This document shows, piece by piece, positions 7,368 through 62,625 of a DNA stretch of 64,000 nucleotides. Source of the DNA: Mariniblastus sp. (GTDB lineage: Bacteria > Planctomycetota > Planctomycetia > Pirellulales > Pirellulaceae); the NCBI GenBank assembly GCA_029247405.1, contig JAQWLH010000108.1, forward strand, positions 1 through 64,000, read 5' to 3'. The notes below the pieces were generated by a model. The model was given only the letters and a program-made list of their open reading frames with translations. It was not told the DNA's origin and did not search any database. The stretch's first letter is position 1; each line of letters starts with the position of its first letter. Both the position numbers and the translations under genes were made by a program.

Positions 7368-10016
7368 TTAGAATTTGTCATTCTCATTTTCTTCGGGCTT
7401 AACAAGCGGCTTGACGAAATTCGAAATTGAATCCCGCAATTTCTGAACTTGATCAGGCACTGGAGCTATCGCCGTCTCGACGTTCATTCGGATTTTCTTG
7501 GCTGGCACCTTTTGAACCGGAACTGTTGGACCGCTAGCCGGCGTCGTTTTCTTCGAGACACCGGTGGGACTGGTCATGGGTGACTGCCCTGTTTGATTCG
7601 CATCCAAATTGACGATGGTTGCGTCGCGATTAACCGACTTAAGCAAATCAACAGGCCGAACACTGGCAGGTCGAACACTGGCAGGTCGAGGTTTTGTCTT
7701 TCGACTACGACTTGATTTTGACTCTGGATCGTCGACATGAGGTTTTTGATCGCTCCTCAAATCAGAAACGGTTTCACGCTCTTGCGTTATTGGGCGACCG
7801 CCGAGTGAGGAACCTTCAAAGCTCTTATTCGCTCCGAATTCACCTGCGGAGTCCGAGCGATTGGCGGTTCTTTTACCGGCTTGCAATGCTGATCGCTTCA
7901 CACTTCTACATTCGTCTTCAAAGGCTTGATCGAGCATTTCTTCGGTCATCGTTGAATCTTTAATTTCCGGAACTCGACCAATCACTTTAGCGCGTGCCTG
8001 GCGAATCAACTCCGCTAGCGCCGTCCGATCCAAATTGGCTTTTTCTCGAGGTTTACTTGCGTCGTCGTTCTTGGGTGTTTGGAAGATCTCTGCATCCGGA
8101 GAGGTTGGTGGATCCGCGATCGCAGGCATTTGGCGTTCAATTTCAGCCTCGACAATCGAATCATTAAGCGACTCAACGAGACCTTCAATGTCGACCACTT
8201 GGTCGCTTTGCCGGGGCACTTGATCTGATTCGGAAGCCGTTGAAATGACGGGCTCTGCTAAACGCTTTTTTGTTTCGCTGTCTTTTCGCGACCCTGGGTT
8301 CGATGGAAGATTCGTTGCCTCTGCAACGATACCGACTTTGGTGTCCTGATGTTTAGCGACGGTCTTATCGAGATCCTGGGGGATTGGATCCGGACGAGAT
8401 ACAGGCGGTGCGGTAGGCTCGTCGGCGAACGTTCGGGGGGAAGGAAAAAACTTTCGGTCGGAAACTTGCTCATTTTCGACAGTGGCCCAGTCAACTGGCT
8501 TCAAGTTGGTCAGACCCAAATCTGAAAGCGAGGAGCTAGACAACTTACTCGCAATAGTGGGAGCCTCCTGATTGCCATGCCCGCTCGCTCCACTCTCGTG
8601 CAGGGCGCTCGGTTCGCTTGGCAAATCCACTGGCGGATGTTCAACAGTTGGATTTTCCGAATTACTTCCCATTGGTGGTGCGAGCAACATGACCAAGCCC
8701 AAGCCGAGCATCAATCCGCAGAGGCCACCGGCGAGGACAAGTTGTCTTTTGCCCAAGCCATCGGGGCGAGTTGAAACTTGAGCTTCTCCTACTTTGATCA
8801 GCAAATCAGCGTCGACTGATGACAAAATTGAATTGATTTGAGCCAATCCTGTCCGTGCTTCATTTAAAATCCGAGTCTTGTTTTCGACATCGGCCACGAG
8901 TGTCATACTATCTGCATGCCTGTCGCTCAAATTGAACAAACGTTTGCGCAAGCCGCCAATATCACTATCCAAACTATCAAGCCGAGCCTGCTGCACGGCA
9001 TTTTGGCTTTTAATATCACGAACCGCGGGATCAAGAACTAAGCGGATTTGACCTTCCATTGCTCGAATCGCCCCGGATGCACTTGACACTTTGGGATGGA
9101 CCGACGTGTACAGACCGGACAAAACCGCAAACTCACTTTTGCGTTTGACGAGCTCCTGTTTTAATGCATTTAATTCAGGTTGACGCTGTGTCAAATCACT
9201 GGAAATATTGACAATCGCTTCTGGATCTTCATTCGCGAGGGCCAAGCCAGCGAGAATACTGTTGCCTATTTCAATTTCGGATTGAATCACGCGTCGCTCA
9301 AGATTCAGTTGGGCGATCTCTTTCTTGATTGGATCATCCCGAACGGTCGAATCTCCAATCGAGCTGATGCCACCGGCATCCTGTCCCAACAGTCTGTACA
9401 TCTTTTTCAATTCTACTTTGGACGCTTCCAAAGAGTCCTCTGCCGCTTTGCACGTCTGCCGCAATTCGACTTCCATGCTTTGAAATTTACGATGCCGAAC
9501 TTCATTCACTTTTGAAATAATTTCACGGACAAGCAAATCAATAAATTTCTTGGAGCGCTCGCGCGATGAAGCTTTTGAGTTGAGAATAATGACTTCCGTT
9601 TTACCAAACTCGGCACCATTAGGAGCGCTAAATGAAATCGCCCCCTGAATGTCTTCAATCGTCTCTTCGCTGGGATAGACATTGCTACCAAGACCAAACA
9701 AACCGCTTGCAGGAGGACCTAGTTCTTGTAGGGCGTTTCGGATCACCTGCGGTTGTCGAGAGATCTCAAAGATTGTTTCCTGAGCGGACTTCATTGATTC
9801 CGTCGAATTGAATTGGCCCGGCTTGTAGGATTGGCCGAGTAGATCATCTCGCAATTTAAGTGACTGTTTCGCCGACCAGGTTTCCTGCCTCAGGGCAATC
9901 GCGTATATGACCGCGAACATGACGCCGGCCATAGCAGGCAAAATCCAGTAGGCTTTATACTGGTTGAGAGTTGCCAATATGTGGCTTGCACGATCTGGAT
10001 TGGCTTGCTTGTTCAT
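7368..10016 (-). CDS. Wzz/GumC-like polysaccharide chain-length determinant protein with long disordered C-terminus
   Basis: 882-aa ORF; N-terminal TM (YWILPAMAGVMFAVIYAIAL), coiled-coil region, second TM (LVLAGGLCGLMLGLGLVMLL), then about 440 aa low-complexity tail; adjacent and convergent to sugar transferase. Confidence 0.75.
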   Translation of the reverse strand: MNKQANPDRASHILATLNQYKAYWILPAMAGVMFAVIYAIALRQETWSAKQSLKLRDDLLGQSYKPGQFNSTESMKSAQETIFEISRQPQVIRNALQELGPPASGLFGLGSNVYPSEETIEDIQGAISFSAPNGAEFGKTEVIILNSKASSRERSKKFIDLLVREIISKVNEVRHRKFQSMEVELRQTCKAAEDSLEASKVELKKMYRLLGQDAGGISSIGDSTVRDDPIKKEIAQLNLERRVIQSEIEIGNSILAGLALANEDPEAIVNISSDLTQRQPELNALKQELVKRKSEFAVLSGLYTSVHPKVSSASGAIRAMEGQIRLVLDPAVRDIKSQNAVQQARLDSLDSDIGGLRKRLFNLSDRHADSMTLVADVENKTRILNEARTGLAQINSILSSVDADLLIKVGEAQVSTRPDGLGKRQLVLAGGLCGLMLGLGLVMLLAPPMGSNSENPTVEHPPVDLPSEPSALHESGASGHGNQEAPTIASKLSSSSLSDLGLTNLKPVDWATVENEQVSDRKFFPSPRTFADEPTAPPVSRPDPIPQDLDKTVAKHQDTKVGIVAEATNLPSNPGSRKDSETKKRLAEPVISTASESDQVPRQSDQVVDIEGLVESLNDSIVEAEIERQMPAIADPPTSPDAEIFQTPKNDDASKPREKANLDRTALAELIRQARAKVIGRVPEIKDSTMTEEMLDQAFEDECRSVKRSALQAGKRTANRSDSAGEFGANKSFEGSSLGGRPITQERETVSDLRSDQKPHVDDPESKSSRSRKTKPRPASVRPASVRPVDLLKSVNRDATIVNLDANQTGQSPMTSPTGVSKKTTPASGPTVPVQKVPAKKIRMNVETAIAPVPDQVQKLRDSISNFVKPLVKPEENENDKF
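7657..7686. repeat. 15-bp x2 in-frame tandem duplication
   Basis: cgaacactggcaggt repeated twice exactly; encodes RPASV-RPASV in the Wzz-like tail. Confidence 0.95.
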
Positions 10017-10302
10017 TCAATCACCACACAGTTAATCAATAATCGCGTCGGAGAATTAAGCGACCCGGCCCCTGTCTCCGCCTCAATGCCGCCATGGGTA
10101 CGCAGGCGCATATAGTCTTAGAGTCGTATCGGACCGGTTTCCGACTTGAGAACGATCCATCTCCGTGTTGGTTATGGCGCAAAAGGGCCCGTCAGATTAA
10201 GAAGATTGCGCCGCAAAATAGAACCATGCAGTAGGGTTAAGCTAATCAGAAAAGTCGCCACTGGAGCGTTGGGGCGATTTCAGATTCCAAGGCGAGAAAG
10301 AT

Positions 10303-10824
10303 TCAATCAAAATCCTCGATTTCCAACCGCACGCTGCCAATCAAACCACCCGCCAATCCTTGACGAAGACCAGATTGAGCATCACTTGGTTTTTGGATTT
10401 CAAGGCGAACCAAGTTGGCTGCGGTCAGGATATCTTGAATTTCAACGCGGAACGGAGGCTCACTCAAAGCCGTTTCCCCAAGCTCCCGATCGTTTAAATA
10501 GACCTTGGCGTCGTGGTCAACTTCTTCGACCACCAACCAAACTTTTTGATTCGGATCCAAACCAGTGGGTCGGTTGAATTTCCGATGATAAGCAACGCGG
10601 CCGCGAAAAGAGTTACCAAGCCAATGGCTCCAGTCGCAAGGAATCTTGCACTGGAATTGAAGACCAATCGCGGGAAGATCTCCAGAACCCGTCGCAGCAT
10701 CAACGACAAGGACCGTGGCATTCCAAGGTCCATGAAGACGAATCGGATGAATGTTGGGCTGGTTATTCAGGGACGTAGCTTTGAATGATCGACGACTGAT
10801 GAACTTGTTGAGTTGTTTTCTCAA
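10303..10824 (-). CDS. Galactose-binding-like (glycoside hydrolase N-terminal sugar-binding-like) domain protein
   Basis: WSHWLGNSFRGRVAYHRKFNRPTGLDPNQKVWLVVEEVDHDAKVYLNDRELGE resembles GH2 sugar-binding jelly rolls; overlaps the upstream gene by about 62 nt so the start may be internal. Confidence 0.55.
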   Translation of the reverse strand: MRKQLNKFISRRSFKATSLNNQPNIHPIRLHGPWNATVLVVDAATGSGDLPAIGLQFQCKIPCDWSHWLGNSFRGRVAYHRKFNRPTGLDPNQKVWLVVEEVDHDAKVYLNDRELGETALSEPPFRVEIQDILTAANLVRLEIQKPSDAQSGLRQGLAGGLIGSVRLEIEDFD

Positions 10825-12097
10825 TCAAACGCATCGTAATTTTGATCCCCCGAACCGGGAACGGGTAGGGCGGTCTGGTTTCTCGCTCAGCATCATCATC
10901 CGGAGCCGGCGTTCCGCCGGTGACTGGATCGTTGAGGCCATTGGTGCCCTCATCAATCAGTGAGTCACCATCCTGATCGAGACCGTCGTGCTCGTAGAAT
11001 GTTGTCCAAGTGTCAAACACATTAGCAGACCCGCCGCTGAGTTGTGATTGAGAAGCCCCGTTTTGAGCGAACCAAGCAGCCTCGGTCGTCCCAGCCGCAT
11101 ATCCGAGATCGACAAAGGCGCCGATTGCGTGGGTCGTCGGAAGCGGCAAAGCATTGTCGTTGTATCCAACATCACCTGGCTCAACGAGAACCGATCCAGC
11201 ATTCTCTACGGTAGCGTTGGGCGAATAGACTCGGACATCAAACGCCGCAACGTCGGTTAACAAAATGTCCCCACCGGCTGGCTTGATTCGCCCGAGAGCC
11301 AACCCCGCCCAATCAAATTCGTTGGGGAAATTGTGAACGGCAAAAGCATCAATAACGTGTGCAAAACGATTCTTTCGCACAGCCAAATCAGCCAGTGTGT
11401 TTGGAACAATGCTGAATTCTGTGTTTCCAGCATTGGTCGAAATAATGCGAACTGAGAGATCATTGTTGCGAACAAAATTGTTTACTTGGGCTGCCGTTTG
11501 ACCGGTCAACGTTGCCGCATCCGGTCGAATCAGGAGCAATCTCCGATGAAGTCGAACGGAATCTTCGAAGTCAATCACTCCGTCGATATTGACTTCTTTC
11601 CAAGTCGGAAAATACCACACTTCGGCCATCGTCGATTCTGTGACCGTGCCACCAATCACGCCGCGGAATTTCTTGCCATCGGGACTCCGGACCGTCATCC
11701 CGATTGAATCGTCAACATCGCCGATGTAGTTGTTGATGCTTGCAGCTGATGAGCTGTCATTAATACTCCCCTCAACGATTTCTAAAAATCCATTTGGCGA
11801 AGTTGATTCAGAATAAGGTCGCGGGTCGAGAGTCAGGTTTGCCAAATCAGAGCGCAACATTTCTTCGGTGGTGCGCAAGCGGTTGGCCATCTCCATGACG
11901 GCTCGGCCTAGCTGCATTTTTTCACTGGCGTATTTAAACGCAGACATCATCGCACCGAGAACGATTAAGGTCATCGTCAGGGCGATCATAATCTCGACGA
12001 GGGTCAGACCCGCACGGTTGAGGGGGGCTTTGAAGTTGCGAAGTTTTAGCACGCAGGTCCGAGAAGCAGTCATCAAGTCTCCTTTGGCAGGATTCAT
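10763..12097 (-). CDS. Type IV pilin / type II secretion pseudopilin-like protein (prepilin N-terminal methylation motif)
   Basis: NRAGLTLVEIMIALTMTLIVLGAMMSAF N-terminus; C-terminal DGLDQDGDSLIDEGTNGLNDP. Confidence 0.75.
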   Translation of the reverse strand: MNPAKGDLMTASRTCVLKLRNFKAPLNRAGLTLVEIMIALTMTLIVLGAMMSAFKYASEKMQLGRAVMEMANRLRTTEEMLRSDLANLTLDPRPYSESTSPNGFLEIVEGSINDSSSAASINNYIGDVDDSIGMTVRSPDGKKFRGVIGGTVTESTMAEVWYFPTWKEVNIDGVIDFEDSVRLHRRLLLIRPDAATLTGQTAAQVNNFVRNNDLSVRIISTNAGNTEFSIVPNTLADLAVRKNRFAHVIDAFAVHNFPNEFDWAGLALGRIKPAGGDILLTDVAAFDVRVYSPNATVENAGSVLVEPGDVGYNDNALPLPTTHAIGAFVDLGYAAGTTEAAWFAQNGASQSQLSGGSANVFDTWTTFYEHDGLDQDGDSLIDEGTNGLNDPVTGGTPAPDDDAERETRPPYPFPVRGIKITMRLIEKTTQQVHQSSIIQSYVPE

Positions 12098-12702
12098 CAG
12101 GGTCGACGGTTACCAAGTAATTTCCTCAGATCACCGAAATGATCCAGGGAACTACAAATATGAAGTGGGAGCGACAGAAGGTGGGATTCGCACGTCACCT
12201 CAACGGTACCTATCGAATTGGGGGAAAAGGAAAAGTCTCACCATTCTACAAGTTCCCCATCAATTGTACACGCTATTTTTGGGGTCAGATGCTTAATCCA
12301 TCGTCAATTTTGGCTTCAATTGATCACAATTCTCGCTTATTCGTTGAATGTCAGATGGACTCTAGGGCATTTGCCCGGCCAATGGCCGCCGTCCCCCCGG
12401 AAAAACCAGCCAAAATCAGCGGTTTTCGGGAAAATCCGATCTCCTCGTCTTACCTGACATTTCGATCACAATTTCTTCGTTGATTGCCTCCAATTCAACG
12501 TTTGCACGGCTTGAGGGTAATTCGAGGCCCTTCGGAGAACGGTTGATTCAAGCATCTTTGAATTCAAAATCGTCTGGTTTTATCGGTAGAAACCGGCAAC
12601 GCATTTGAGATAATAAATCGTTCACTCTAGCTTCCTTCCAAGCCTCGTTGAGAGATACCGTTGGTTGAATGGCTGCGCGCATGGGAACCCTTTGAGAAAT
12701 CT

Positions 12703-15700
12703 ATGATTCAAAAATGCAAACAAGCAACTGAGGCATCCTTGGGGTCGACCTTTAGTTCAAAAAAAACACTCATTTGTCAAACGCGACTGGGCTTTTTTGT
12801 GGTCCTCGTGTTAGCCAGCCTTTGCTCAACTGTCAGCGGTGCTCCTCAAGACGAGGATGCTGCCCAGCGGATTTACGAAACTGCGACGCTCGCGCAAAAC
12901 AACAATTCGTATGAATTTGCGCTTCGCGAGTGGGACAAACTTCTCACGCAGCATGCCAATTCAGCCCTCGCACCAAAGGCAAATTATTATGCCGGGATCT
13001 GCTCGATCCAAACCGTAAACTACGAAAAATCGATTGGCTACCTGAAAACTGCCGCCCAAAGCCTCGATGCCGAATCAGGACTAAAGGAGAAGGCAACTCT
13101 TTTCTTGGGGTTCGCTCAATACCGACACGGCTTGGACTTGGCTGAGGATGATTCCGCGAATCAAGAGTCAACGACGCTGCTCACCACCGCAACTCAAACA
13201 TTTACCAATCTTTTAAGTAGCAACGCCAAGTTTGAAGAAATGGACCAAGCCTTTTTTTTCCAAGGCGAAGCCTTCGAAGCGCTCGGACGAAACGAGGAGG
13301 CGCTTAAGTCGTACACCCAAATGTTAGCGCTCCCTGAGCAGAAATTTCAGTACGAAGGATTATTAGCTGCCGGTGACATCGAGGCAAAACTGGGACAATT
13401 CAAAAACGCTCTGGGACACTACGAGCAATTTCGTGAACTGGCTACCAAGGCTGGTGGACATCCCAAACTGAATGTTGTGAACCTGGAAACTGGGCGGACG
13501 TTAATTCGAATCGGAGCCACGGAAGAGAAAAATGGCAATTCCCAGACGGCGACTGATCGGTTCAAAGAGGCGGCCCAGATACTCGCTGTTGTAGCAGATC
13601 AAGATTCGGCAAGTCTGACCGACGCAGAAGAACGGCTGATTGCCGAAGAGGCCAAATTCCAACAGGCTTTTTGTGAATCGAGACTGGGGCGATTTGCGAA
13701 ATCAGCTGAACTTTATGCGACGATCGCCAACAATCCAAAATCCAATCGAGCCATCCAGTCGCTATCTTTTGCGGGACGTAATTTCCTCAACGCCGGCGAC
13801 GCCCCGCAGGCCACGCTCGTTCTTGAGAAAGCGGCGACCGCCGAATCCGCTTACGGTGCTCAGGCCGCTCACTGGCTTGCAGATGAGATCTATCTTCGCG
13901 TCGAGCCAATCAAACCCCAAAAAGCAAACGCTCTTGCAACCCGATGGATTAAGCAACTCAGCTCAGATGACCCGATGCTAGTCCCGTTAAAAGCGGATCA
14001 AGCCAACGCGGCCTACGCGATCCCAAAGCGTCGCAAAGAATCGGTAGCTCTATTCCAAGCCATCGTCGACCAACACCCTAATCACGAACTCGCCCCGATG
14101 GCACTTTACAATGCAGCCTACGGCTCGCTGGACCTACGCGATTACAAATCAGCGATTTCCAAATCAAGTGCATTTGAAAAGGCGTACGCTAATTCGGATT
14201 ATCTCGCGGATACACTTGAAGTCAAAGCTGATGCCTCTCTGTTGAACGATCAGCCTGAAATCGCCGAGCAAGTTTTCGGGCAATTGGCGAACCAATTCCC
14301 GGACAACGAGAAGGTTTCGTTTTGGAATTTGCGGTCTGGAGTAGCTTTGTTTCTGCAAAAGAAATATCAGCCCACCATTACCCAACTAAGTCCCTTGGTG
14401 GAATTATTCTCAGACCCATCCCGTCAAGCAGAATCACTTCACTGGATTGGTTCGAGCCAATTTCACCTCAAGGACTACACCAACGCCACCCAATCACTTT
14501 CGCGATCGAATCAACTCAACAACAAGTGGCGCCGTGCCGACGAAACGCTGTTGATGCTTTGCCGATCGCAAATGGCAAACGGCCAAGTCGATGCTGGACA
14601 AGAAACAGCGACCGGACTCATCGCTGGCTACCCCCAATCGCCCCTCTTGGGTGACCTTTACTACCACTTGGGCCGACATGCCTACGACAACAAAAAATAT
14701 GAAGAGGCGTTCGCCAATTTTGATCAAATCCAAAAAAACTACACGGAATCCAAACTCGCCCCATTCGCACTTTATGACGCAGCCTGGAGCCAAATGGAGC
14801 TCAAAAAATTCAAGGAGTCTGAAAAACTATTTGCAACATTGATGGAGCGTTTCCCCCAGCACGAACTGGCTCAAAAAAGTAAGATTGGACGTGGCGCTTC
14901 GTTGCGAAAAATAGGAAATACGGAGGCCTCCATTGTCGAGCTTCAAGATTATTTAAAGACCGCCAATCCGACTGGCCTGGCCAAAACCAATGCCCTATTT
15001 GAAATTGGGCTCAGCCAAGTCGAACTTAAAAAGTGGGATGATGCGATTGGTACCTTTGAAACGTTGATCGCGGAATCCGCCGATTCACCCAAACTCGACC
15101 GGTTCTATTACGAGCTTGCCTGGTCTTATCGTTCCAAGGCAAAAGAAAAACAAGCCCTTAAGTATTTCGCTAAAATCATAGCGGAAACCCCAACCAGCCC
15201 GCTTGTCGGAGAAGCCAGCTTTCATGTCGGAACGGCAGCCTACGATGCCAAGCAATACGCTCGTGCCATCAAGTCATATCAGGCCTGCCTTGAATCCCAA
15301 ACCGACGATAACGTTCGTGAAAAAGCTGCCTATAAACTCGCCTGGGCCTATTACAAACAAGATCAATTTGAGCTGGCTCTGGACAGCTTCACCAAGCAAA
15401 CAACGGTCTACTCAAAAGGCGATCTGGTCGGCGATGGAATGTTCATGGTGGCCGAGTCTTATTTTCGCATGAAAGAACATGCAAAAGCACTCGATGCTTA
15501 TCTTGCCGCCCGACCTGTCATTGATGCCTCCCAAACGGTGGAACCAAAAATTAAATGGCTGACTCTGTTGCATGGCGCTCAGAGTGCTAATCACTCGCGT
15601 GTCAAAAAATACGACCAAGCCATCCAGCTGGCCTCAGAGATAGAAAAAACCCAAGCTGACAAATCGTTTCAACAGGACGCCTGGCTTGAAATGGGCACGG

Positions 15701-16101
15701 CCCACATGGGATTAAGGCAATCTGAACAAGCCTTGGTTTTTTACCGTAAGGCAGCCGAGAATCTTGGGCGAACAGGGGCTCGAGCCCGCTGCATGATCGG
15801 CGACATTCACTTCGCTAACAAAAATTTTGATGACGCAGGTAACGAATTCAAACTGGTCTATTTCGGATTCGGCGGGCCACAAGCTCCCGACGATGTAAAA
15901 CCATGGCAAGCCTACGCAATTTACGAATCCGCGCGTTGTAGCTTCGTTCAGGTCGACCAGGCCCCGCCAAGTGCCAAACCAAAATTGATCAAAGATGCAA
16001 TCCAACAATTCGAATATCTAATCAACAACTACCCCAATGACAAGCTCGCACCAGAAGCCAAACGCCAATTAGAAACGCTGAAAAAACTCAAAGCCAATTA
16101 A
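12703..16101 (+). CDS. Large TPR-repeat protein (tol-pal YbgF/CpoB-like, about 1130 aa)
   Basis: Repeated TPR-type helices (e.g. YEFALREWDKLLTQHANSALAPKANYYAGICSIQ; FANFDQIQKNYTESKLAPFALYDAAWSQMELKKFKESEKLFATLMERFP); immediately upstream of exbB/exbD-like genes. ATG at 12703 preferred over TTG at 12661. Confidence 0.85.
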   Translation: MIQKCKQATEASLGSTFSSKKTLICQTRLGFFVVLVLASLCSTVSGAPQDEDAAQRIYETATLAQNNNSYEFALREWDKLLTQHANSALAPKANYYAGICSIQTVNYEKSIGYLKTAAQSLDAESGLKEKATLFLGFAQYRHGLDLAEDDSANQESTTLLTTATQTFTNLLSSNAKFEEMDQAFFFQGEAFEALGRNEEALKSYTQMLALPEQKFQYEGLLAAGDIEAKLGQFKNALGHYEQFRELATKAGGHPKLNVVNLETGRTLIRIGATEEKNGNSQTATDRFKEAAQILAVVADQDSASLTDAEERLIAEEAKFQQAFCESRLGRFAKSAELYATIANNPKSNRAIQSLSFAGRNFLNAGDAPQATLVLEKAATAESAYGAQAAHWLADEIYLRVEPIKPQKANALATRWIKQLSSDDPMLVPLKADQANAAYAIPKRRKESVALFQAIVDQHPNHELAPMALYNAAYGSLDLRDYKSAISKSSAFEKAYANSDYLADTLEVKADASLLNDQPEIAEQVFGQLANQFPDNEKVSFWNLRSGVALFLQKKYQPTITQLSPLVELFSDPSRQAESLHWIGSSQFHLKDYTNATQSLSRSNQLNNKWRRADETLLMLCRSQMANGQVDAGQETATGLIAGYPQSPLLGDLYYHLGRHAYDNKKYEEAFANFDQIQKNYTESKLAPFALYDAAWSQMELKKFKESEKLFATLMERFPQHELAQKSKIGRGASLRKIGNTEASIVELQDYLKTANPTGLAKTNALFEIGLSQVELKKWDDAIGTFETLIAESADSPKLDRFYYELAWSYRSKAKEKQALKYFAKIIAETPTSPLVGEASFHVGTAAYDAKQYARAIKSYQACLESQTDDNVREKAAYKLAWAYYKQDQFELALDSFTKQTTVYSKGDLVGDGMFMVAESYFRMKEHAKALDAYLAARPVIDASQTVEPKIKWLTLLHGAQSANHSRVKKYDQAIQLASEIEKTQADKSFQQDAWLEMGTAHMGLRQSEQALVFYRKAAENLGRTGARARCMIGDIHFANKNFDDAGNEFKLVYFGFGGPQAPDDVKPWQAYAIYESARCSFVQVDQAPPSAKPKLIKDAIQQFEYLINNYPNDKLAPEAKRQLETLKKLKAN

Positions 16102-16374
16102 CCGCAAACCATCGGCACACTCGCGATGACCAAGCCACGATACAACCCCAACAGCCTAAAATACTGAGGGGCTTTTGCCACTGGACCCCACTCAATGAGC
16201 TTTGCTGATCAACGCACTTTCGAGTGAAAACAATACCAACCATGAAGCATACGCCTACGACGGCGCTCAAAAGCCTTTCCCTTTGCACCGTTGGGAGTTT
16301 GAAGGCCCGGACCGAGCGAAGAGCAGGATGGACCATTACCGTGCGCCACACGAGCAATCACCCCTGGAGTTAAC

Positions 16375-17292
16375 ATGCGACCTTCGGTATTAAAACCGGC
16401 TCAAATTGCCATCACCCTCACGGCTTGGATGATTGGCATGACCTTATGGGTCAGCACGTCAGTTAGCACTCATGCTTCCCAACCCAGTGTTCATCCAGAG
16501 ATCGGGGCACCGCTGATCGCGACTCTGCCTCAGGCCGAGGGAGATACAAGTAAGCCGGCTCAAAAACGCGGGATCAACTTTCTTTCACTGTTGACCCAAG
16601 GCGGCTGGTTCATGGTGCCGCTATTACTGCTCTCAATTGGCGTTTTCACCATCGCCATCGAAAGATATCTCGCTTTACGTCGTACCAGAATCTTCCCACC
16701 GAAACTGGTGGATCAACTTGCGATCCTCAGCCAGTCCGAGAACGGTTTGGAACCGCGACGTGCCTATCAAACTTGCCAGCAATATCCATCATCAGCCGCT
16801 TATGTTTTGCGTTCGATGTTGGTTAAAGTCGGACGTCCACAAATTGAATTGGAAAACGCAGTCGGAGAAGCGAGCCAACGCGAAGCCAATCGACTCTCAC
16901 AAATGACGTCGTGGCTATCACTGGCCGCTGCCATTGCTCCGCTGATCGGACTCCTTGGAACTGTTTGGGGAATTACTCAAGCGTTTTATGATACGACGCA
17001 GTTGGCCGAGTTGAATGCAGGTCAAAACCGAGGAGTTGCCCTGGCCAACGGTATCTACGTTGCCCTGGTAACAACGATGGTTGGATTAATGATCGCAATT
17101 CCTGCGGCGATCCTTTCACACTTTTACGAAAACCGAATTGTACAACTGCTCAACGAGATTGAGGAAATGGCCTGCAACCTTCTCCCCCAATTCGAGCGCT
17201 ACGAAGGCCAAGTTCGATTCACCCAAGGCGTCGCCGAATCGACTGAAATAGGCAACGTCAATCCTGCCGTCGCTCAAACCTCTCACGACTAG
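16375..17292 (+). CDS. MotA/TolQ/ExbB proton channel family protein
   Basis: GGWFMVPLLLLSIGVFTIAIERYLALRR; WLSLAAAIAPLIGLLGTVWGITQAF; GIYVALVTTMVGLMIAIPA. Confidence 0.93.
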   Translation: MRPSVLKPAQIAITLTAWMIGMTLWVSTSVSTHASQPSVHPEIGAPLIATLPQAEGDTSKPAQKRGINFLSLLTQGGWFMVPLLLLSIGVFTIAIERYLALRRTRIFPPKLVDQLAILSQSENGLEPRRAYQTCQQYPSSAAYVLRSMLVKVGRPQIELENAVGEASQREANRLSQMTSWLSLAAAIAPLIGLLGTVWGITQAFYDTTQLAELNAGQNRGVALANGIYVALVTTMVGLMIAIPAAILSHFYENRIVQLLNEIEEMACNLLPQFERYEGQVRFTQGVAESTEIGNVNPAVAQTSHD

Positions 17293-17420
17293 TGTCAAAC
17301 TGAAAAACAAGAAACTCAAGATCCTGACAATGACAAACCATTCGCCCATTCGTCCTGTTTTGCGATCACGTTGATCGCGGCCCGCGAGTAACGGTTTTTA
17401 AGATTAACCCACTGATAACC

Positions 17421-17834
17421 ATGTCTGTAAAAATAAAACGAACCGCAGCCGTCGGCTCATTGAGCATTACGCCTTTGATTGACGTGGTATTTTTGTTGCT
17501 GATCTTTTTTCTCGTCTCCTCAAGATTTTCCGAAGAAGAGCGCGAGCTAGACCTGAACCTACCCAGTGTCACCGAAGCACTGCCGGCGACGGCCCAAACT
17601 GACGAACTGGTCGTCAACATTGACGAACAAGGGCGCTACTATATCGACGGGTCATTCCGTCAACTCGAGCAAGTCGAACAAATTCTGCGACGAGCCAAAG
17701 CAAACAATCCGTTGACTCAAACAGTTGTAATTCGAGCCGACAAGAAAACCGACTGCGAACCATTACTGATTGCCATCGGGCTATGTAAAAAAGTTGGGAT
17801 TAGTGAGTATACCGCGACAATTGATGGTGGTTAG
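17421..17834 (+). CDS. ExbD/TolR biopolymer transport family protein
   Basis: SLSITPLIDVVFLLLIFFLVSSRF TM with conserved Asp; IRADKKTDCEPLLIAI. Confidence 0.93.
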   Translation: MSVKIKRTAAVGSLSITPLIDVVFLLLIFFLVSSRFSEEERELDLNLPSVTEALPATAQTDELVVNIDEQGRYYIDGSFRQLEQVEQILRRAKANNPLTQTVVIRADKKTDCEPLLIAIGLCKKVGISEYTATIDGG

Positions 17835-17909
17835 CCAGATGTTTTCAGTCTTTTTCATTCATCTTCCTTCAGCTGATGTTTCGTTCAACCAAACGTAATT
17901 AACTTTTAA

Positions 17910-20900
17910 TTGATCCACGTGAAACGCCGAACCGTTCACAAAATAACACCTGCCAAGCAGAGCACATTTGACCAGCAATTCTGGCCTGTGCTGGTTGCCT
18001 TGACGGTGCTCTGCAGCATTGCCGTCGGCGCCGCCGTCACCCTTTTACGCGGCCCTTGGATGTGGGGTAGTTTATTCGTGCTCCCCTTGGTTGCGGCGGG
18101 TTCAATTTTATTCCTGATTAGTTTGGACAGCCAAAAACTTCGTCGCTCGCTTCAGCTGGCAATCGTTTTGAGCTTGGCCATTCACTTGTTAGTCATGGTG
18201 TTTGCCTCGGTAACCAACATTTTTCAAAACCCATACAAGCCCAACGAGCGCAAAGTTGCTCAGCGGCCAATTCGAACGATTGAAATTTCTGATCAGCGAG
18301 CCGCCTTTGTCTGGGAAGAGGCCAACTCCCGAGAAACGCCTGAGCCCGACGTTGTGCCGGACAAGGTTCAACGTCCGACGACCACCGTCGTTAAACCACA
18401 AACGGTACCCGTCAAAGAATCTCAGCCAAATATTAATCCTCAGCTAGTCAAACGTGAAACTCCCATCCAATCTGTGCCACGCCAAAACCCTGAGTTATCA
18501 CAATTGCGAAAGCAAACTCGGCCCGCAGTTCAGCCACAGTCGAGTGAGAAAATAACCGAGCAAAAAACAACGCGTCAAACCAAACCCAGCCCCACCAAGC
18601 CAGAAAAGCCAGTTGAAAGCTCAAAGGCGGCTGATTCAGTTTCCCGGCAACCGGTCGCGAAAACCGAAACCCGCGTTGAGCCTGCCAGCGCAAATGCGGC
18701 CAAGGATAACCCGACCGAAATCACTCGCTCTTCGTCTTCGCCACGTCGAACCCAACCCACAAAATCGCCGTCCATTTCAGCGCCCAAGGCATCGTCATCA
18801 CAAGCTCGAGTTCGACGAGATACTCCCCTCATTCCCATCGCAACAAAAAAATCCATGACGGCCGAGAAAGTTACCTCGGCAGCCACTTCAAAACGGGTCA
18901 AGGCCGAGGCATCTAAATCCGCAAATCAAATAACGCGGAGGCCGACCCAATCAACCACCGTGACACCCGCCACAACCAACCAACCCCAAACAGTCCTCAA
19001 CCCTCAATCTCAGATCGCCCGAACCCTCAATCGGCGAAAGCCAACCGCCGCTCAACCCACTATCTCAACTGAGACTTCAGTTAACCGGACTCCACGTCGT
19101 GCAACCACTGATGCGAAGATCGCTGTCTCACCTATCCCGGTAGAGAAACCGTCTCGGTCGCCGGAATCAAAAACGGCCTCCCGAGCACTCAACTCAAAAA
19201 CACTTTCAGTCTCTCGAAGCACGCAAGGAGTCGCGGGCGTTGGACGGTCAAAAAATCTACACCGTGATGTAGGCGGCATGAATAGCCCCGCCGCTCGCGC
19301 TTCGGATTCGGCTCGACGTGAACGATCTTTGAGCAACATGAGTGCTGACCGCATGCTCTCCGCCTCGCAAAAATCCCAAGTGCAGAGAACCATTGGTGCC
19401 ACTCGCATTCCGACCAGCGCTTTTAAAGCGGAAACTTCAAAAGCCGCAAAAGTTGCGGGAGCCAAGACGACAGGCGAACGAACCATGGAGTCTTCGGCCG
19501 CGAAAATAGATGCCAGAGCGGCGTCCGCTCGCGACGAAGTTTCAGCCGAGCGAGGCTCGGCGGAGGTCGATTTAGGACCGACCAAAATTGTGATGGATCG
19601 CCAATCCCAACGACGCTCAGGAGGGGGCCAGCCGGAAGTTTCACAACTCTCCCCCGACGCAACCCAACGCTCAAAAGACCGATCCAACGCTCAGCCATCT
19701 TTGGTTGCTGAATTATCTCCCAGCGTCATGGCGCCCCGCAGCCAATCGGCAACGGCTCCCTCAACCGAGGCCTCTGAAGCTTCCGACTCAGCAAGTCTAG
19801 CGGCTCGAACCGGCGGAAAAGCAGCGGTCATGGCCGAACGCTGGGCCGCCGATTTGAAAGGCGAATTTTCCAACCGGGGAGAGTCAAACCTCGCTGAACA
19901 GCTAAGCGAAAATCGGCAACGGGCAAATCGGAATGAGGCAGTCACCCGCTGGAACACAGATCAAGAAGAGGATGAAGACGAGGAAAACCAACGTGGAACT
20001 CGGCGAACGCGGGTGGCTCAAGCCCCGATCATTCGCTCGGACCCAGGTTTTGGTACCGCGGAGGCTGATGGAATTTCGAAGGCCGCTCCTGCTGATGCGG
20101 GAGAATCACCGACCGAATCTTTAACTGTCAAAGTTCAGCGGCAGGCGTCAGCAGCCCTTCCGGGTTCCGGAATTGGTCAGACCGCAACAAATGCATTACT
20201 TCAAGCAGCCACCTCTTTACCCATCATTGAATCAAAGACCGGTCGCCGGACTGGCAGCGGCAAAGCCACAAATGTCGATTCCGAATTCGCCACCGGACTC
20301 GCTGCCAATCCACAGACTCGCGGCTCCCGGTCGGCTCAGCCAGACGTAAAGACAGCCCTTTCTGGAGTTTCCAAAATCCAACCCACTCCAACCTCAGAAA
20401 AATCTAGTGTTGATGGCTCGGCTGGAAAAAGGGGGCAATCCGATGCGTCAGATGTTTCAATTGCCCGAGCAGAATTAGAACCGTCGGAGAAACTTCAGGG
20501 CAGCGTCCTCGACATCGAAGCAATCGAAGGAGCGGCTGGTTTAGGAATTCGCCCGGATGAATTTGCTGGCATTCCCAATCGCCCTGCCTCTAAGGACAGC
20601 AAGCAGTTGCAACCTGATCTCGACAACCGATTTATCAACAAGAAATTTGGCGGCGCACCTTCGATTAACCCAGACGCCGTGATTGCCCAGAAGGCTTTTC
20701 GAAATCGAACCCCCTCGGCAATCGCCGGCGCGGCAGAACCGACAACGGAAGCAGCAATTCAGTCGGGACTGGAATTCCTGGCGCGTTATCAATCTGCCGA
20801 TGGCAGCTGGGCTCTGAAAGGTTTTGACCCTGATGCGCCACAACATTTGACACAATTGAGCAGCGACACGGCGGCAACCGGACTTGCTCTATTGGCGTTT

Positions 20901-21827
20901 CAGGGAGCCGGGTACAACCATCGCGAATTTAAATACGCACGGCAGGTCGATCATGCACTGCAGTGGCTGATTGAAAACCAATCTGCCGACGGCGGTTTAT
21001 ATGTATCGTCGGACGACAAATCAAATAATGCCTGCCGACTTTATAGCCATGGGATTGCGGCCCTCGCATTGACCGAAGCCTATGGAATGACACAGGATGC
21101 CCGCCTCAAAACGGCCGCTCAAAAAGCACTGGACTATATTGCTGCCACTCAAGATGGTCGAAAGGGGGGGTGGCGGTATTTTGATACACCTGGGAAGAAA
21201 TCAGCCGACACATCCGTCTCCGGTTGGATGATGATGGCGTTGCAAAGCGGACGGTTGGCAGGACTCACCATTGATGAACGTTGCTTTGACGGAATTGACA
21301 ATTGGCTCGACGTTGCCGTCGCCCCCGACAATCAGGCCCTTTTTAGGTACAACCCCTACGCCAAAGACTCTAAAGGCGTCTCAAGAATTCAAGGCCGCCA
21401 ACCATCTGCATCAATGACTGCTGTTGGCTTGTTGATGCGAATCTACAGCGGCTGGGGCAAACAAGACCCGCGACTTTTAGTCGGGGCCGATTACCTACTC
21501 AAATCTCAGTTGCCAACCGATGCCACACCGCGAGGGCGAGATACCTACTATTGGTATTACGCCACTCAAGTCCTCAAGCATGTCGGCGGCACACGCTGGG
21601 AGCAATGGAACAACCAACTCCGCCCACTGTTGATTCGATCACAAGAGAAATCGGGCGATTATGCGGGCAGTTGGCATCCCTACAAACCCGTTCCTGACCG
21701 CTGGGGCGCGTTTGGCGGTCGCATTTATGTTACGACCATGAACTTGCTTTCACTTGAGGTTCGTCACCGGATGCTGCCAATCTATCAAAGGCCCAACCAA
21801 CCAGCAGCGGCAGCCGTGATTAAATAA
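17910..21827 (+). CDS. TonB-like anchored protein with about 700-aa Ser/Arg/Pro/Thr-rich linker and C-terminal prenyltransferase/squalene-cyclase-like toroid domain
   Basis: TM segments including LAIVLSLAIHLLVMVF; long low-complexity segment; toroid repeats ALQWLIENQSADGGLY, ALDYIAATQDGRKGGWRYFDTPGKKSADTSVSGWMMMAL; TTG start (GTG 17919 alternative). Confidence 0.8.
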   Translation: MIHVKRRTVHKITPAKQSTFDQQFWPVLVALTVLCSIAVGAAVTLLRGPWMWGSLFVLPLVAAGSILFLISLDSQKLRRSLQLAIVLSLAIHLLVMVFASVTNIFQNPYKPNERKVAQRPIRTIEISDQRAAFVWEEANSRETPEPDVVPDKVQRPTTTVVKPQTVPVKESQPNINPQLVKRETPIQSVPRQNPELSQLRKQTRPAVQPQSSEKITEQKTTRQTKPSPTKPEKPVESSKAADSVSRQPVAKTETRVEPASANAAKDNPTEITRSSSSPRRTQPTKSPSISAPKASSSQARVRRDTPLIPIATKKSMTAEKVTSAATSKRVKAEASKSANQITRRPTQSTTVTPATTNQPQTVLNPQSQIARTLNRRKPTAAQPTISTETSVNRTPRRATTDAKIAVSPIPVEKPSRSPESKTASRALNSKTLSVSRSTQGVAGVGRSKNLHRDVGGMNSPAARASDSARRERSLSNMSADRMLSASQKSQVQRTIGATRIPTSAFKAETSKAAKVAGAKTTGERTMESSAAKIDARAASARDEVSAERGSAEVDLGPTKIVMDRQSQRRSGGGQPEVSQLSPDATQRSKDRSNAQPSLVAELSPSVMAPRSQSATAPSTEASEASDSASLAARTGGKAAVMAERWAADLKGEFSNRGESNLAEQLSENRQRANRNEAVTRWNTDQEEDEDEENQRGTRRTRVAQAPIIRSDPGFGTAEADGISKAAPADAGESPTESLTVKVQRQASAALPGSGIGQTATNALLQAATSLPIIESKTGRRTGSGKATNVDSEFATGLAANPQTRGSRSAQPDVKTALSGVSKIQPTPTSEKSSVDGSAGKRGQSDASDVSIARAELEPSEKLQGSVLDIEAIEGAAGLGIRPDEFAGIPNRPASKDSKQLQPDLDNRFINKKFGGAPSINPDAVIAQKAFRNRTPSAIAGAAEPTTEAAIQSGLEFLARYQSADGSWALKGFDPDAPQHLTQLSSDTAATGLALLAFQGAGYNHREFKYARQVDHALQWLIENQSADGGLYVSSDDKSNNACRLYSHGIAALALTEAYGMTQDARLKTAAQKALDYIAATQDGRKGGWRYFDTPGKKSADTSVSGWMMMALQSGRLAGLTIDERCFDGIDNWLDVAVAPDNQALFRYNPYAKDSKGVSRIQGRQPSASMTAVGLLMRIYSGWGKQDPRLLVGADYLLKSQLPTDATPRGRDTYYWYYATQVLKHVGGTRWEQWNNQLRPLLIRSQEKSGDYAGSWHPYKPVPDRWGAFGGRIYVTTMNLLSLEVRHRMLPIYQRPNQPAAAAVIK

Positions 21828-43599: not shown

Positions 43600-43941
43600 C
43601 GCGTATACGAATGCGGAACTATGATTTTTAGGGGAAATTTCGATCGAACTTTAAACAACAATTTCCTCATTGTCTAGGCAGTCCGAGAGCAAAGTATGCC
43701 GCTGCGCCTCGATCGGGTTCCGCCCAGTCTCAAACGTTTCCAGAGATACAACTGCCAGTAGTTCTTTTGCAACTCCGGCTGGATCATGAATCTCTGCGAG
43801 AGTGTAAGATAGTGTTTGCTCGATTATCACACTGAAGGCCTAAACGTGCTTGAATGCAAACTAAAATCGATTTTCCGTCGTGGACTTTTCTCAGAAGTAT
43901 CGAATGCTTCATCTCCCTTAACAGGGAACCGTTTGACAAGC

Positions 43942-45273
43942 ATGGCTGTGCCCACCATGTCTCCCGCATCGGTGGTCCTCGTTTGGTTTAAAACAACTCT
44001 TTGCTTGCTGGCTTGTCTCGTCGGTGGGGCGACGCCGAATCTATCGCTCGCCGATCGTCCACCCAACATTGTCGTCATTCTTGCTGACGACTTGGGCTGT
44101 TGCGACATGGACCTGTACGGCGGCTGGGTTAAAACCCCGCGCATCAAAGAAATGGCTCAACAGGGGATGCTCTTTACTGACTTCCACACCAACTCTTCGG
44201 TTTGCAGCCCGACCCGTGCCGCATTCCTTACTGGCCGATATCAGCAGCGTGTCGGCATCGTGGATGTGATCGTGGGTAGTCGAGAACCGGAAAGTGGAAT
44301 CAAGCCCTCGGTCCCAACTCTCCCGCGTGTGTTGAAGGACAATGGCTACGCGACGGGCCTATTTGGCAAATGGCACTGCGGGTATCAAGACGCATACAAC
44401 CCAACCCACCACGGCTTCGATGAATTCGTCGGTTTTCTCAATGGGGCGACGGATTATCACCAACATGGTGCGTGGCGAGTCGGCCTCGAAAAGAAGAACG
44501 TGCCTGGTTATTCGACCCACATCATCACCGATCGAAGCGTCGACTTCATCAAACGCAACCAAGATAAACCGTTCTTCCTTTATGTGTCGCACGCGGCGGT
44601 ACACAATCCCTACCAAAGCATCGAGGACACTCCCGACAAACGCAACAAAGGCGAAAACCCCAACCGGATCAACGACAAGAACCGAGCCAAGTACAAGTGG
44701 ATGCTTGAGGATATGGATCAGGGCGTCGGAAAAATCCTCGACACACTCGCAGAACTCAACCTCGCAGAAAACACCTTGGTCATGTTCTTCTCGGACAATG
44801 GTGCCGTAGGAATGTGCCCGAAGGAATTCCGTAAATATCGCGGGGGCAAGTTTAGCCACTACGAAGGAGGGCATCGAGTCCCAGCGATTGCCTGGTGGCC
44901 GGGCAAGGTCGCGCCAGGTACTCGGTCCGACAAACTGGTCGTCGGCTTCGACCTGTTCCCGACGTTCACTGAAATCGCTGGCCTCACAAAACACACGCCC
45001 GCTAATCTTGATGGTAAAAGTTTCAAGTCGCATTTATTAGAGCAACAAGACTTCCCGGATCGAACTATCTTTTTTGGTTACGAACCCAAACTCGGGACAG
45101 CAATGCGGCGCGGTGATTGGAAAATGATAATCAAACAAAACAACGTCCAACTCTTTAACCTTCAGAACGATCCTCGGGAAACGACCAATGTGGCTTCCCA
45201 AAATTCTGAAATCACCCAATCCATGAGACAAGCGATTGAGCGGTTCAAAGCAGAGGTTACGCCTGGATCATAG
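43942..45273 (+). CDS. Arylsulfatase
   Basis: RPPNIVVILADDLGCCDMDLYGG; NSSVCSPTRAAFLTGRYQQR; ATG 43942 gives a signal peptide. Confidence 0.94.
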   Translation: MAVPTMSPASVVLVWFKTTLCLLACLVGGATPNLSLADRPPNIVVILADDLGCCDMDLYGGWVKTPRIKEMAQQGMLFTDFHTNSSVCSPTRAAFLTGRYQQRVGIVDVIVGSREPESGIKPSVPTLPRVLKDNGYATGLFGKWHCGYQDAYNPTHHGFDEFVGFLNGATDYHQHGAWRVGLEKKNVPGYSTHIITDRSVDFIKRNQDKPFFLYVSHAAVHNPYQSIEDTPDKRNKGENPNRINDKNRAKYKWMLEDMDQGVGKILDTLAELNLAENTLVMFFSDNGAVGMCPKEFRKYRGGKFSHYEGGHRVPAIAWWPGKVAPGTRSDKLVVGFDLFPTFTEIAGLTKHTPANLDGKSFKSHLLEQQDFPDRTIFFGYEPKLGTAMRRGDWKMIIKQNNVQLFNLQNDPRETTNVASQNSEITQSMRQAIERFKAEVTPGS

Positions 45274-45331
45274 ATAAATGCCTGCCCCACTTAGGATGCT
45301 GGATCAATTGTAAAAAAGAGGACGATCAAGA

Positions 45332-46738
45332 ATGGGAAAGAACTCATGTATTTTATTTGGCGTACTATTGGTCTTCCTGACGGCCTTGACTCAGCAAGTC
45401 AGTGCGCAGGCCGAGAAAACCACCAAGTTACGTCAACCGCATATGGTGCTGTTCCTCGCCGACGACTTAGGTTGGGGCGATGTCGGTTACCACGGTAGCC
45501 AGATTAAGACGCCGCATATTGATGCCCTCGCTGAAGCTGGCACGCGATTGAATCGTTTTTATGTGATGCCGGTTTGTTCGCCGACTCGTGGGGCACTCAT
45601 GACAGGACGGTACCCTGTACATTTGGGCCTTCAATGCGGTGTTGTTCGACCTTGGGCCGAGCACGGTTTGCCGACCGACGAACGCACCCTCCCGCAAGCG
45701 CTTCAGGAGGTGGGTTATAAAACAGCAATCGTTGGCAAATGGCATTTGGGCCATAACGACCCTTCGTTCCTTCCTACCAATCGTGGATTTGACCATCAAT
45801 ACGGCCACTACAATGGCGCATTGGATTACTTCACGCATATCCGTGACGGCGGCCATGACTGGCATCGCAACGATCGACGGAACGATGACCCGGGCTATAC
45901 GACCGAACTCATTGCTCGGGAGGCGACACGAGTCATTGAGCAGCATGACCCCTCGAAGCCCTTGTTCCTGTATGTGCCGTTCAACGCCCCGCACAGTCCC
46001 ATTCAGGCACCCGAAAAGTACATTCAACGATACTCCGAAATTAAAAATCCAAAACGCCGAGTTTTCGCGGCGATGGTCGACTGCATGGATGACGCAATCG
46101 GTCAGATCATGGAACAACTCAAAGCCAGTGGGTTTGCGCCTGAAAACACCCTCGTCATTTTCGCGAGCGACAACGGCGGCATCGTCCAATTTGGATCCGT
46201 TGGACCATGGCGAGGACAAAAAGGAAAGCTGTACGAGGGCGGTGTCCGTTCCCCGACCATTGTTGTTTGGAAGGGACAACTCAAACCAGGAAGTCAAGTC
46301 AATGAACCAATGCACATCGTCGATTTGTACCCCACCTTGCTGCGACTCGCCGGCGCTGACCTGAAACAAGCCAAGCCGCTCGATGGCCATGATGCATGGC
46401 CTACGATTTCAACTGGCAAGCCTTCGCCACACACTTCGATCTTGCTCAACAGCACACCTTTTACTGGCGCCGTCCTCGAGGGGAACTGGAAACTCATTTG
46501 GAACGGGCAAGTCCGAGCCAACCAAACCGAGCTACCTAAAAATGAACTCTGGGAATTATACGATCTTGCCAACGACCCGACCGAGAGCAACAACCTCTAC
46601 GCCAAACAACCTGAGATCGCCTCTCGCTTGAAAAAGGTAGTTCAAGACTATCGCAACAAAGCAGCAAAGCCAAACATTCCACCCAACCGCACCCCCAAAG
46701 ATTTCAACACGCCCGCCGTGTGGGGTGAATTCAGATAA
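45332..46738 (+). CDS. Arylsulfatase
   Basis: HMVLFLADDLGWGDVGYHGS; VMPVCSPTRGALMTGRYPVH; signal peptide. Confidence 0.95.
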   Translation: MGKNSCILFGVLLVFLTALTQQVSAQAEKTTKLRQPHMVLFLADDLGWGDVGYHGSQIKTPHIDALAEAGTRLNRFYVMPVCSPTRGALMTGRYPVHLGLQCGVVRPWAEHGLPTDERTLPQALQEVGYKTAIVGKWHLGHNDPSFLPTNRGFDHQYGHYNGALDYFTHIRDGGHDWHRNDRRNDDPGYTTELIAREATRVIEQHDPSKPLFLYVPFNAPHSPIQAPEKYIQRYSEIKNPKRRVFAAMVDCMDDAIGQIMEQLKASGFAPENTLVIFASDNGGIVQFGSVGPWRGQKGKLYEGGVRSPTIVVWKGQLKPGSQVNEPMHIVDLYPTLLRLAGADLKQAKPLDGHDAWPTISTGKPSPHTSILLNSTPFTGAVLEGNWKLIWNGQVRANQTELPKNELWELYDLANDPTESNNLYAKQPEIASRLKKVVQDYRNKAAKPNIPPNRTPKDFNTPAVWGEFR

Positions 46739-49527: not shown

Positions 49528-50504
49528 TCTTCTGATTGGCCTACTTTTTTATGGGGTGGATTTCTTTTAACGTGGTCATCGTGGCGGATGTTTTCAATCA
49601 CCCAAGTACCAGCCAGAACGGCAGTACTAGGAACCATCATTGATATCGGGTCACTCAACATCACACAACGTTTTATCATAGCACTTTTATCGTATTCGAT
49701 GATGAGCAGTTTTAAGTGTTAGCCATCTTCCAAGATTCATAAATAACAATCAACGATCGTCGATTTTGACTTTCAAGCGCTTTGGATGAGGTCTTTTTTA
49801 ATAATTCATGATCCTTGCTCTTGTTGTATGTTTTTATGGTATTGAAAAAGACGGTCCAAAGCTCTCCTTCCCAATTTCGCTCAACCTATCCTTCGATTCG
49901 TCGAGCTTGAAAGGGTTACTTTCACGTGTCATTGGTTAACTGCGCGCAAATAGCGGATCTAAAACCTGCCTCATCTCGATTAATCTGCGACAGCGGGGGT
50001 CAAATATTGATGAAGTCAAATCTATGATTTGCTTCCAACTAGGGTGACGCGAGTTACGACGTGGCACGCTCAAAATTGCGACGTTTCCACCAACGAAGTG
50101 ATGAAATCTCGCCCTAAAAAAACATCTGTCTGGAATTTCTCCCAGAAGCGGAGCGAGTGCCGAGAAGAAATTGACTGGGGTTGCGCTGCTACGACCGAAC
50201 GATCTCGAACACCGCGCCGGCAGGTTATTTGCATTAATTTGTTATAAAAACAAGCAGGGCCTGGCTGTCAACCCGACTACAGCCGCGTCTCATCGTTTAT
50301 GTGAACGCCCCGAGCTGCGTATTATTGAAAATGTTTATTTCCCGCAAAACATTGTATATCAATATATATATGAAATACACTAAAGGCCTTAATCAAGTTG
50401 GATACCTCTCTTTTAGTTTTAAAACTTTGCCGGTAGCCACTTGTCGACCACCAATTCCGACGGCGTCTAACGCTCGGCTTGAAACCTGGCAACGAAAGCA
50501 AACA

Positions 50505-51530
50505 ATGACAGAGCATGGGGATGACATTCAGGCTGTTGAGAGACTCGGCGAGGCGCGAGATGCGATCGTCAACGAATTGCGTAAAACGATCGTTGGAATG
50601 GATGACGTCATCGACGAGATGATGATCGCCATTTTTGCTCGTGGACACTGCCTCCTGGTTGGCGTACCGGGTTTGGCCAAAACATTACTGGTCAGCTCGT
50701 TGGCACAAACCATGTCATTATCATTCAAGCGCATTCAGTTTACACCTGATCTGATGCCTTCAGACATCACCGGGACCGAGCTCCTACAGGAGGACGCCGA
50801 GACTCACCAGCGGCGATTCAAATTCCAAAAGGGTCCCGTGTTCACCAATCTCTTGCTGGCTGATGAGATCAACCGAACGCCGCCCAAGACTCAGGCTGCG
50901 TTACTTGAGGCGATGCAGGAAAAGCGAGTCTCTTCCGGTGGCGTGGACTACAAGCTCGACCAACCATTCTTCGTACTGGCCACTCAAAACCCGATCGAAC
51001 AGGAGGGCACCTACCCGCTTCCCGAAGCCCAACTCGATCGTTTCCTGTTCAACATCATGGTCAAGTACCCCAGCCGCACCGAGGAGCTCGACATCATGCG
51101 GAGTGTGACCAATGACGAAGAACCGGTGCTGAACGAGGTGGTCGACGGCCCCACGATTCAGGAATTCCAGCACGTGGTTCGGCGTATCCCGGTAGCCGAT
51201 CACGTATTTGAATATGCGGCAGAATTGGTCCGGGCCACACGTCCTGACGAGCCGAATGCTCCAGAGTTTGTCAAAAAATTAATGGCTTGGGGAGCTGGTC
51301 CACGGGCGTCGCTCAACTTGATTCTCGCCGGTAAAGCTCGAGCCGCCCTGCGTGGTAGGACACATGTTTCTGTCGAAGACATCAAGGCGTTATGCCTGCC
51401 GATCCTCCGCCATCGCATCATTCCCAGTTTTGCGGCGCGCTCCGAAGGCATGACGGCGGACATGCTAATTGAAAAACTGATTGCAGAAACTCCGACCGAC
51501 GAAAACCTACTCTCACGGAAGACAGGTTAA
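50505..51530 (+). CDS. MoxR-type AAA+ ATPase
   Basis: GHCLLVGVPGLAKTLLVSSLA; LLADEINRTPPKTQAALLEAMQEKRV; FVLATQNPIEQEGTYPLPEAQLDRF. ATG 50505 preferred over upstream track start 50301. Confidence 0.95.
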   Translation: MTEHGDDIQAVERLGEARDAIVNELRKTIVGMDDVIDEMMIAIFARGHCLLVGVPGLAKTLLVSSLAQTMSLSFKRIQFTPDLMPSDITGTELLQEDAETHQRRFKFQKGPVFTNLLLADEINRTPPKTQAALLEAMQEKRVSSGGVDYKLDQPFFVLATQNPIEQEGTYPLPEAQLDRFLFNIMVKYPSRTEELDIMRSVTNDEEPVLNEVVDGPTIQEFQHVVRRIPVADHVFEYAAELVRATRPDEPNAPEFVKKLMAWGAGPRASLNLILAGKARAALRGRTHVSVEDIKALCLPILRHRIIPSFAARSEGMTADMLIEKLIAETPTDENLLSRKTG

Positions 51531-51534
51531 CCGG

Positions 51535-62620: not shown

Positions 62621-62625
62621 AACAG

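Follow-up and report, generated by a model that had tools for sequence, protein, structure and literature searches.

The 64,000-nucleotide stretch of DNA analysed here (the window) encodes a 1305-aa protein that is likely an SHLS-type (TonB/TolA) periplasmic force transducer, powered by ExbBD and carrying a new kind of head; no experiment has yet been brought to bear on this reading. Non-TonB-headed SHLS transducers with a vWA head are already known. New is the head formed by an alpha/alpha toroid, for which a mode of action is proposed by analogy. The window derives from an 83.7%-complete MAG; among named relatives, Mariniblastus and further Pirellulaceae MAGs are nearest to it.

Gene organization of the locus

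Four confirmed ORFs follow each other on the + strand and encode a secreted TPR protein, ExbB, ExbD and the 1305-aa protein. This gene row had been proposed in a preliminary description made from the sequence alone, and it held. The TPR-repeat protein (12703..16101, +) has 1132 aa from the ATG at 12703, in an ORF open from a TTG at 12661. Its N-terminus is visibly hydrophobic and of the export type, and the protein matched TPR families as well as TIGR02795 (ybgF) in Pfam and NCBIfam, with a score summed over 10 stretches. Most homologous loci retain the gene ahead of exbB. Its placement had been likened to that of CpoB/YbgF, which did not hold: the TPR gene precedes the motor genes, whereas cpoB is the last gene of tol-pal in E. 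coli.

The second protein (16375..17292, +) affiliates with the ExbB/TolQ proton-channel subunits (PF01618, E 2.9e-24) and the third (17421..17834, +) with the ExbD/TolR subunits (PF02472, E 3e-24). Both meet the criteria for an ExbB/ExbD motor, that is, Pfam family and pore residues, and both score under the NCBIfam equivalog cut-offs for ExbB, TolQ, ExbD and TolR. Operon neighbours identified with Pfam include PdxA, a histidine phosphatase and a pilin-motif protein, among others; no tolB- or pal-like product was present among the neighbouring genes examined.

The genome contains five exb loci in total. In a second one (L114, G000:C156, 1821-6990), ExbB and two ExbDs are preceded by a toroid protein with a signal anchor and by a protein of 290 aa with a single TM. 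The loci L112, L113 and L115 have no toroid gene; their exb genes, with two ExbDs, are paired with genes for long TPR proteins.

Architecture of the 1305-aa protein

The protein (17910..21827, +) starts with three predicted transmembrane helices, where the preliminary description had recognized only one: TM1 (residues 27-45; 17988..18044, +) and TM2 (residues 54-72; 18069..18125, +), both inferred from hydropathy and present as helices in a low-confidence model, and TM3 (residues 83-101; 18156..18212, +), inferred from hydropathy and alignment. The Ser-x3-His motif (SLAIH) described earlier, which corresponds to the initial half of SHLS, was confirmed within TM3, with the codons for Ser88 at 18171-18173 (+) and for His92 at 18183-18185 (+). 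A model of the N-terminal 200 residues yielded the three helices followed by disorder, with low confidence (pLDDT 60). Among 16 close homologues, His92 and the pair Arg78-Arg79 just ahead of TM3 are invariant and Ser88 is nearly so.

TM3 is followed by a linker of the disordered type, as judged by composition (residues 102-945; 18213..20744, +). Its length is approximately 840 aa, a correction of the initial estimate of about 700 aa. The linker is composed of 13.0% A, 12.5% S, 8.9% R, 8.9% T and 8.0% P, while ILVFMWY together account for only 16.3%. No TonB_C domain was matched by Pfam in the protein. The pattern of the D-box or motor box strand, which binds ExbD and was defined according to PMC10907165, occurred in 12 of 48 cases with 9.6 expected from shuffles, hence without a signal above the shuffled background.

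The C-terminal part (approximately residues 946-1293; 20745..21788, +) is predicted to be an alpha/alpha toroid by profile match, AF2 and Foldseek; in Pfam, the protein matches PF13243, the C domain of squalene-hopene cyclase, at E 1.3e-6. The claim that a toroid replaces the TonB C-terminal domain was thus upheld by Pfam, AF2 and Foldseek. The AF2 model of the toroid reached a pLDDT of 84.7 and a pTM of 0.87. Foldseek placed it among alpha/alpha toroids generally, including class II cyclases, GH76 mannanases, sugar epimerases and prenyltransferases; query TM-scores were about 0.5-0.6, and therefore the likeness is at the fold level only. The window toroid shares the fold and QW-like repeats with squalene-hopene cyclases and other alpha/alpha toroid proteins. 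In contrast to these, the window protein has a single toroid without DXDD, joined by a linker to a membrane anchor.

The cyclase motif DXDD is absent from the window toroid at the homologous positions, and D.DD was found in 3 of 58 toroid representatives, in none of them at the homologous place. A conserved set of polar and aromatic residues (Tyr1045, His1047, Glu1056, Trp1088, Tyr1090, Asp1100, Tyr1213/1216/1217 and Arg1271) is common to anchored and soluble members. Because this set is kept and DXDD is missing, the toroid is more likely to serve for binding, or to be an enzyme of another kind, than to be a cyclase. A terpene cyclase function of the toroid was rejected for lack of DXDD. The genome's own squalene-hopene-cyclase-like protein possesses the motif. 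The latter protein is encoded elsewhere (locus L014, 12909-14621, -), contains the sequence DADD and lies beside a polyprenyl-synthase-like ORF.

The putative docking helix and the motor

In E. coli, the Ser and His residues of the TonB/TolA helix contact ExbB/TolQ; Ser16 and His20 of TonB touch Ser34 and Trp38 of ExbB, in a path leading to Pro190 (PMC12215075). An HMM built from 48 TM segments of planctomycete toroid proteins and searched against a background of more than 1,082 ORFs ranked E. coli TolA first (E 2.9e-4). TonB came next with an E-value of 0.82, which is not significant alone. Both matches were lost with reversed or Ser/His-masked profiles. Four of five column-permuted profiles also lost the match, whereas TolA kept the first rank, at E 0.2, with the remaining one. 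No proof of Ser/His conservation was drawn from the column entropies near the motif, since possession of the motif had been the criterion for choosing the segments.

The residues of the motor were compared in an alignment of 40 ExbB-like sequences from all exb loci retrieved, and not from the window locus alone. The positions equivalent to Thr148 and Thr181 of the E. coli proton path are occupied by Thr in 40 of 40 and 39 of 40 sequences, and the equivalent of Asp25 of ExbD is Asp in 51 of 51. Among the contact positions, Ser34 is found in 37 and Pro190 in 38 of the 40 sequences. The Trp38 position is mostly Val and the Glu176 position is variable, so that neither is conserved. Since Ser34 and Pro190 are conserved and Trp38 is not, the contact network of E. 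coli is mostly, but not wholly, kept.

The window protein resembles TolA and TonB of E. coli in its putative docking helix with Ser-x3-His, its long linker of the presumably periplasmic type and a motor of the ExbBD/TolQR type, which shares the Pfam families and proton-path residues of ExbB/ExbD and TolQ/TolR. It differs from them in lacking the TonB_C or TolA C-terminal domain and a detectable D-box, and in having three predicted TM helices instead of a single N-terminal one.

Conservation of the window-type locus

The window-type set comprised 18 named relatives and 22 further loci from the family and order, all annotated. Gene linkage was counted only for the 36 loci with upstream sequence, the window included. 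In 34 of these, exbD lies directly upstream of the toroid gene, and nearly all have exbB too; L147 has kept exbD and not exbB. The exceptions are L090, which has no exbD in this position, and L083, with none in the 1.1 kb available. Among the 36 aligned window-type homologues, 33 retain the His of the motif (SxxxH), the exceptions being L072 and L075 with Asn and L085 with Tyr. Ser is found in 27, and the other nine have Ala, Gly or Cys. The preliminary description had stated that homologues lacking either the exbBD linkage or the SxxxH helix would speak against its proposal. The linkage proved to be conserved and the motif is largely retained, albeit with real exceptions.

In the phylogenetic reconstruction, the window type formed one supported clade (100/98), with all sampled members from the same order. 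Their linkers range from 423 to 1335 aa with a median of 834, compared to a median of 117 in other anchored toroids. No close homologue was found in 8 of 27 other genomes of the genus (best E only 1e-50 to 1e-61). Since some of these genomes are more than 92% complete, the locus is not universal even within the genus.

Toroid proteins across the phylum

Of 246 sampled Planctomycetota genomes, 219 contain members of the toroid family, as do all 60 genomes covered by the search among relatives. The short paralogues found across the phylum mostly consist of one TM helix, a linker of approximately 117 aa and the toroid, and most are encoded without nearby exb genes. This phylum-wide combination of helix and toroid goes beyond the initial idea. 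Among the 116 toroid ORFs having a TM ahead of the toroid, 92 (79%) carry SxxxH in the last TM, compared to 9 of 426 non-toroid ORFs (2%) in the same loci (Fisher p 7.5e-70). This p-value overstates the case because the sequences are related; after clustering at 60, 50 and 45% toroid identity, the motif was represented in 43.1 of 59, 14.3 of 20 and 7.6 of 13 clusters, respectively (fractions summed per cluster). The count is not circular, since loci were chosen by similarity of the toroid and not of the helix. Most of the exceptions either possess helices of the signal type or carry Ala, Gly or Cys in place of Ser.

Toroid genes adjoin exb genes in further separate branches (L098, L102, L109, L175/L176 and L180), and the exb-linked toroids required at least seven label changes on the tree. 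Some toroid paralogues bear Tat- or Sec-type signals. A short SxxxH-toroid paralogue of the same genome as the window (L009, 11193-13220, -) has a Cys-rich, zinc-ribbon-like stretch ahead of the TM, consistent with a cytoplasmic N-terminus. In deep branches of the phylum, for instance in L161, L165, L171 and L174, a SurA/PpiC-like gene is followed by short toroid genes, frequently as a tandem, and an mfd-like gene also precedes short toroids in several of these loci. The SurA/PpiC-like neighbours may point to a link with outer-membrane protein biogenesis.

Proposed mechanism and alternative explanations

In the proposed mechanism, TM3 would dock on the outer face of the ExbB pentamer via Ser88 and His92, and proton flow through ExbB-ExbD would drive the motor. 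The force would travel along the disordered linker to the C-terminal toroid in the periplasm, which would grip an as yet unidentified protein or glycan partner in the envelope. The sequence data show the gene order, motor residues, motif, architecture, conservation and a predicted toroid fold; that TM3 docks, that the topology is periplasmic, that force is transmitted and that a partner is bound is inferred. A cytoplasmic toroid, the third objection named in the preliminary description, is disfavoured by the secreted toroid paralogues and by the charge bias around the helix (net charge is higher before than after it in 35 of 48 toroid-protein TM segments), and is not excluded by experiment. 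Short paralogues without adjacent exb genes would have to use motors encoded elsewhere in the genome.

Among the closest known systems are the SHLS transducers with vWA heads that Williams-Jones et al. (2025; PMC12204202) described from PVC bacteria, Planctomycetes among them; their genes follow those for a TPR protein and for TolQ- and TolR-like proteins. These transducers share with the window protein the SHLS-type TM helix, a disordered linker, a non-TonB head and the TPR/tolQ-like/tolR-like neighbourhood. In contrast, the head in our case is a toroid according to Pfam and the predicted fold, the locus contains one exbD instead of a pair, three TMs are predicted, and the linker spans approximately 840 aa against about 100. 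The words "toroid" and "squalene" are absent from PMC12204202, and no report of toroid-headed transducers was found in the open-licence literature searched. If confirmed, the toroid would be the second non-TonB head, after vWA, in a small class of proton-driven periplasmic force transducers, in a design that most of the phylum holds in several copies per genome.

Several observations speak against a transducer: Ser is lost in 9 and His in 3 of the 36 homologues despite the kept exb linkage, Trp38 of ExbB is not conserved, no D-box signal was obtained, three TMs are predicted, the match to TonB is weak, and close homologues are missing from part of the genus. Among the alternatives, a membrane-tethered periplasmic enzyme, with a toroid acting on glycans or lipids and sitting on ExbBD or merely encoded beside its genes without any force transmission, is improbable yet the least so. 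In its favour, toroid folds are mostly enzymes, the Foldseek matches include cyclases, GH76 mannanases and sugar epimerases, and soluble toroids have the same strongly conserved polar and aromatic set. Against it, DXDD of class II cyclases is missing at the homologous positions, and a mere anchor would not require a Ser/His helix like that of TolA/TonB. It is far less plausible that a generic TM anchor carries Ser-x3-His by chance or by descent alone, with exb genes adjacent only coincidentally. The substitutions of Ser and His, the lack of nearby exb genes for most short paralogues and the non-independence of counts from related sequences would fit this explanation, but the difference in motif frequency (79% versus 2%) persists across identity clusters, and the TolA/TonB match disappears once Ser/His are masked.

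Equally remote is a Tol-Pal-like locus proper, in which TolA would have diverged into the 1305-aa protein and the TPR protein would take the part of CpoB. Support comes from the match of the TPR protein to TIGR02795 and from the TM profile, which ranks TolA highest among its E. coli matches. However, no tolB- or pal-like genes are among the neighbours examined, the gene order is unlike that of E. coli, a C-terminal domain of the TonB/TolA type is lacking, and the ybgF score was accumulated from many TPR stretches; membership in Tol-Pal was therefore rejected for the locus as it stands. The force-transducer idea of the preliminary description is supported overall, its Tol-Pal part is weak, and force transmission and binding of a partner by the toroid remain inference.

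Relation to Ton in the lineage

TonB_C was detected neither in the genome of the window nor in any of the 25 genus genomes examined. The plug of TonB-dependent receptors is likewise absent from the window's own genome and was found in 1 of the 25. At the order level, all eight genomes with TonB_C also have plugs and carry toroid proteins besides. The absence of TonB_C from its own genome could suggest that the toroid protein substitutes for TonB at classical TonB-dependent receptors. This is highly improbable, given that 24 of 25 genus genomes have no receptor plug and that TonB_C in the order occurs only in plug-bearing genomes, next to toroid proteins; service to such receptors was rejected for the genus. 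Across the phylum, 79 of 119 genomes possess TonB_C, so Ton has not been replaced everywhere.

Planctomycetes take up macromolecules into their enlarged periplasm in a CCCP-sensitive manner, by an outer-membrane step that is unexplained (PMC5394234). A bolder and doubtful reading would regard toroid transducers as a phylum-wide system of outer-membrane energisation in Planctomycetota, doing the job of Ton where TonB and receptors are missing; powering this uptake would be one example, purely as a hypothesis. The more restricted reading, an ExbBD-powered transducer with a toroid head, bears on this energy-dependent uptake, and its Ser/His pair offers a concrete, mutable motif for probing outer-membrane energisation in planctomycetes, including genomes without TonB and receptors.

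Other features of the window

Upstream of the operon (7368-12097, -), the window encodes a protein with a type IV pilin motif (N_methyl) and an 882-aa protein with a weak match to Wzz; an N-methyl-motif-like ORF is likewise located upstream in locus L146. Further downstream (50301-63477, +), a gene row encodes a MoxR AAA+ protein, DUF58, BatA/vWA and glutamine-amidotransferase-like proteins and a 1516-aa protein without Pfam match. A second toroid protein of the window (61571-62620), soluble and with an export-type N-terminus, lies within this MoxR/DUF58/BatA row and is followed by a SASA esterase. Lastly, a tandem pair of sulfatases is encoded at 43816-46738 (+).
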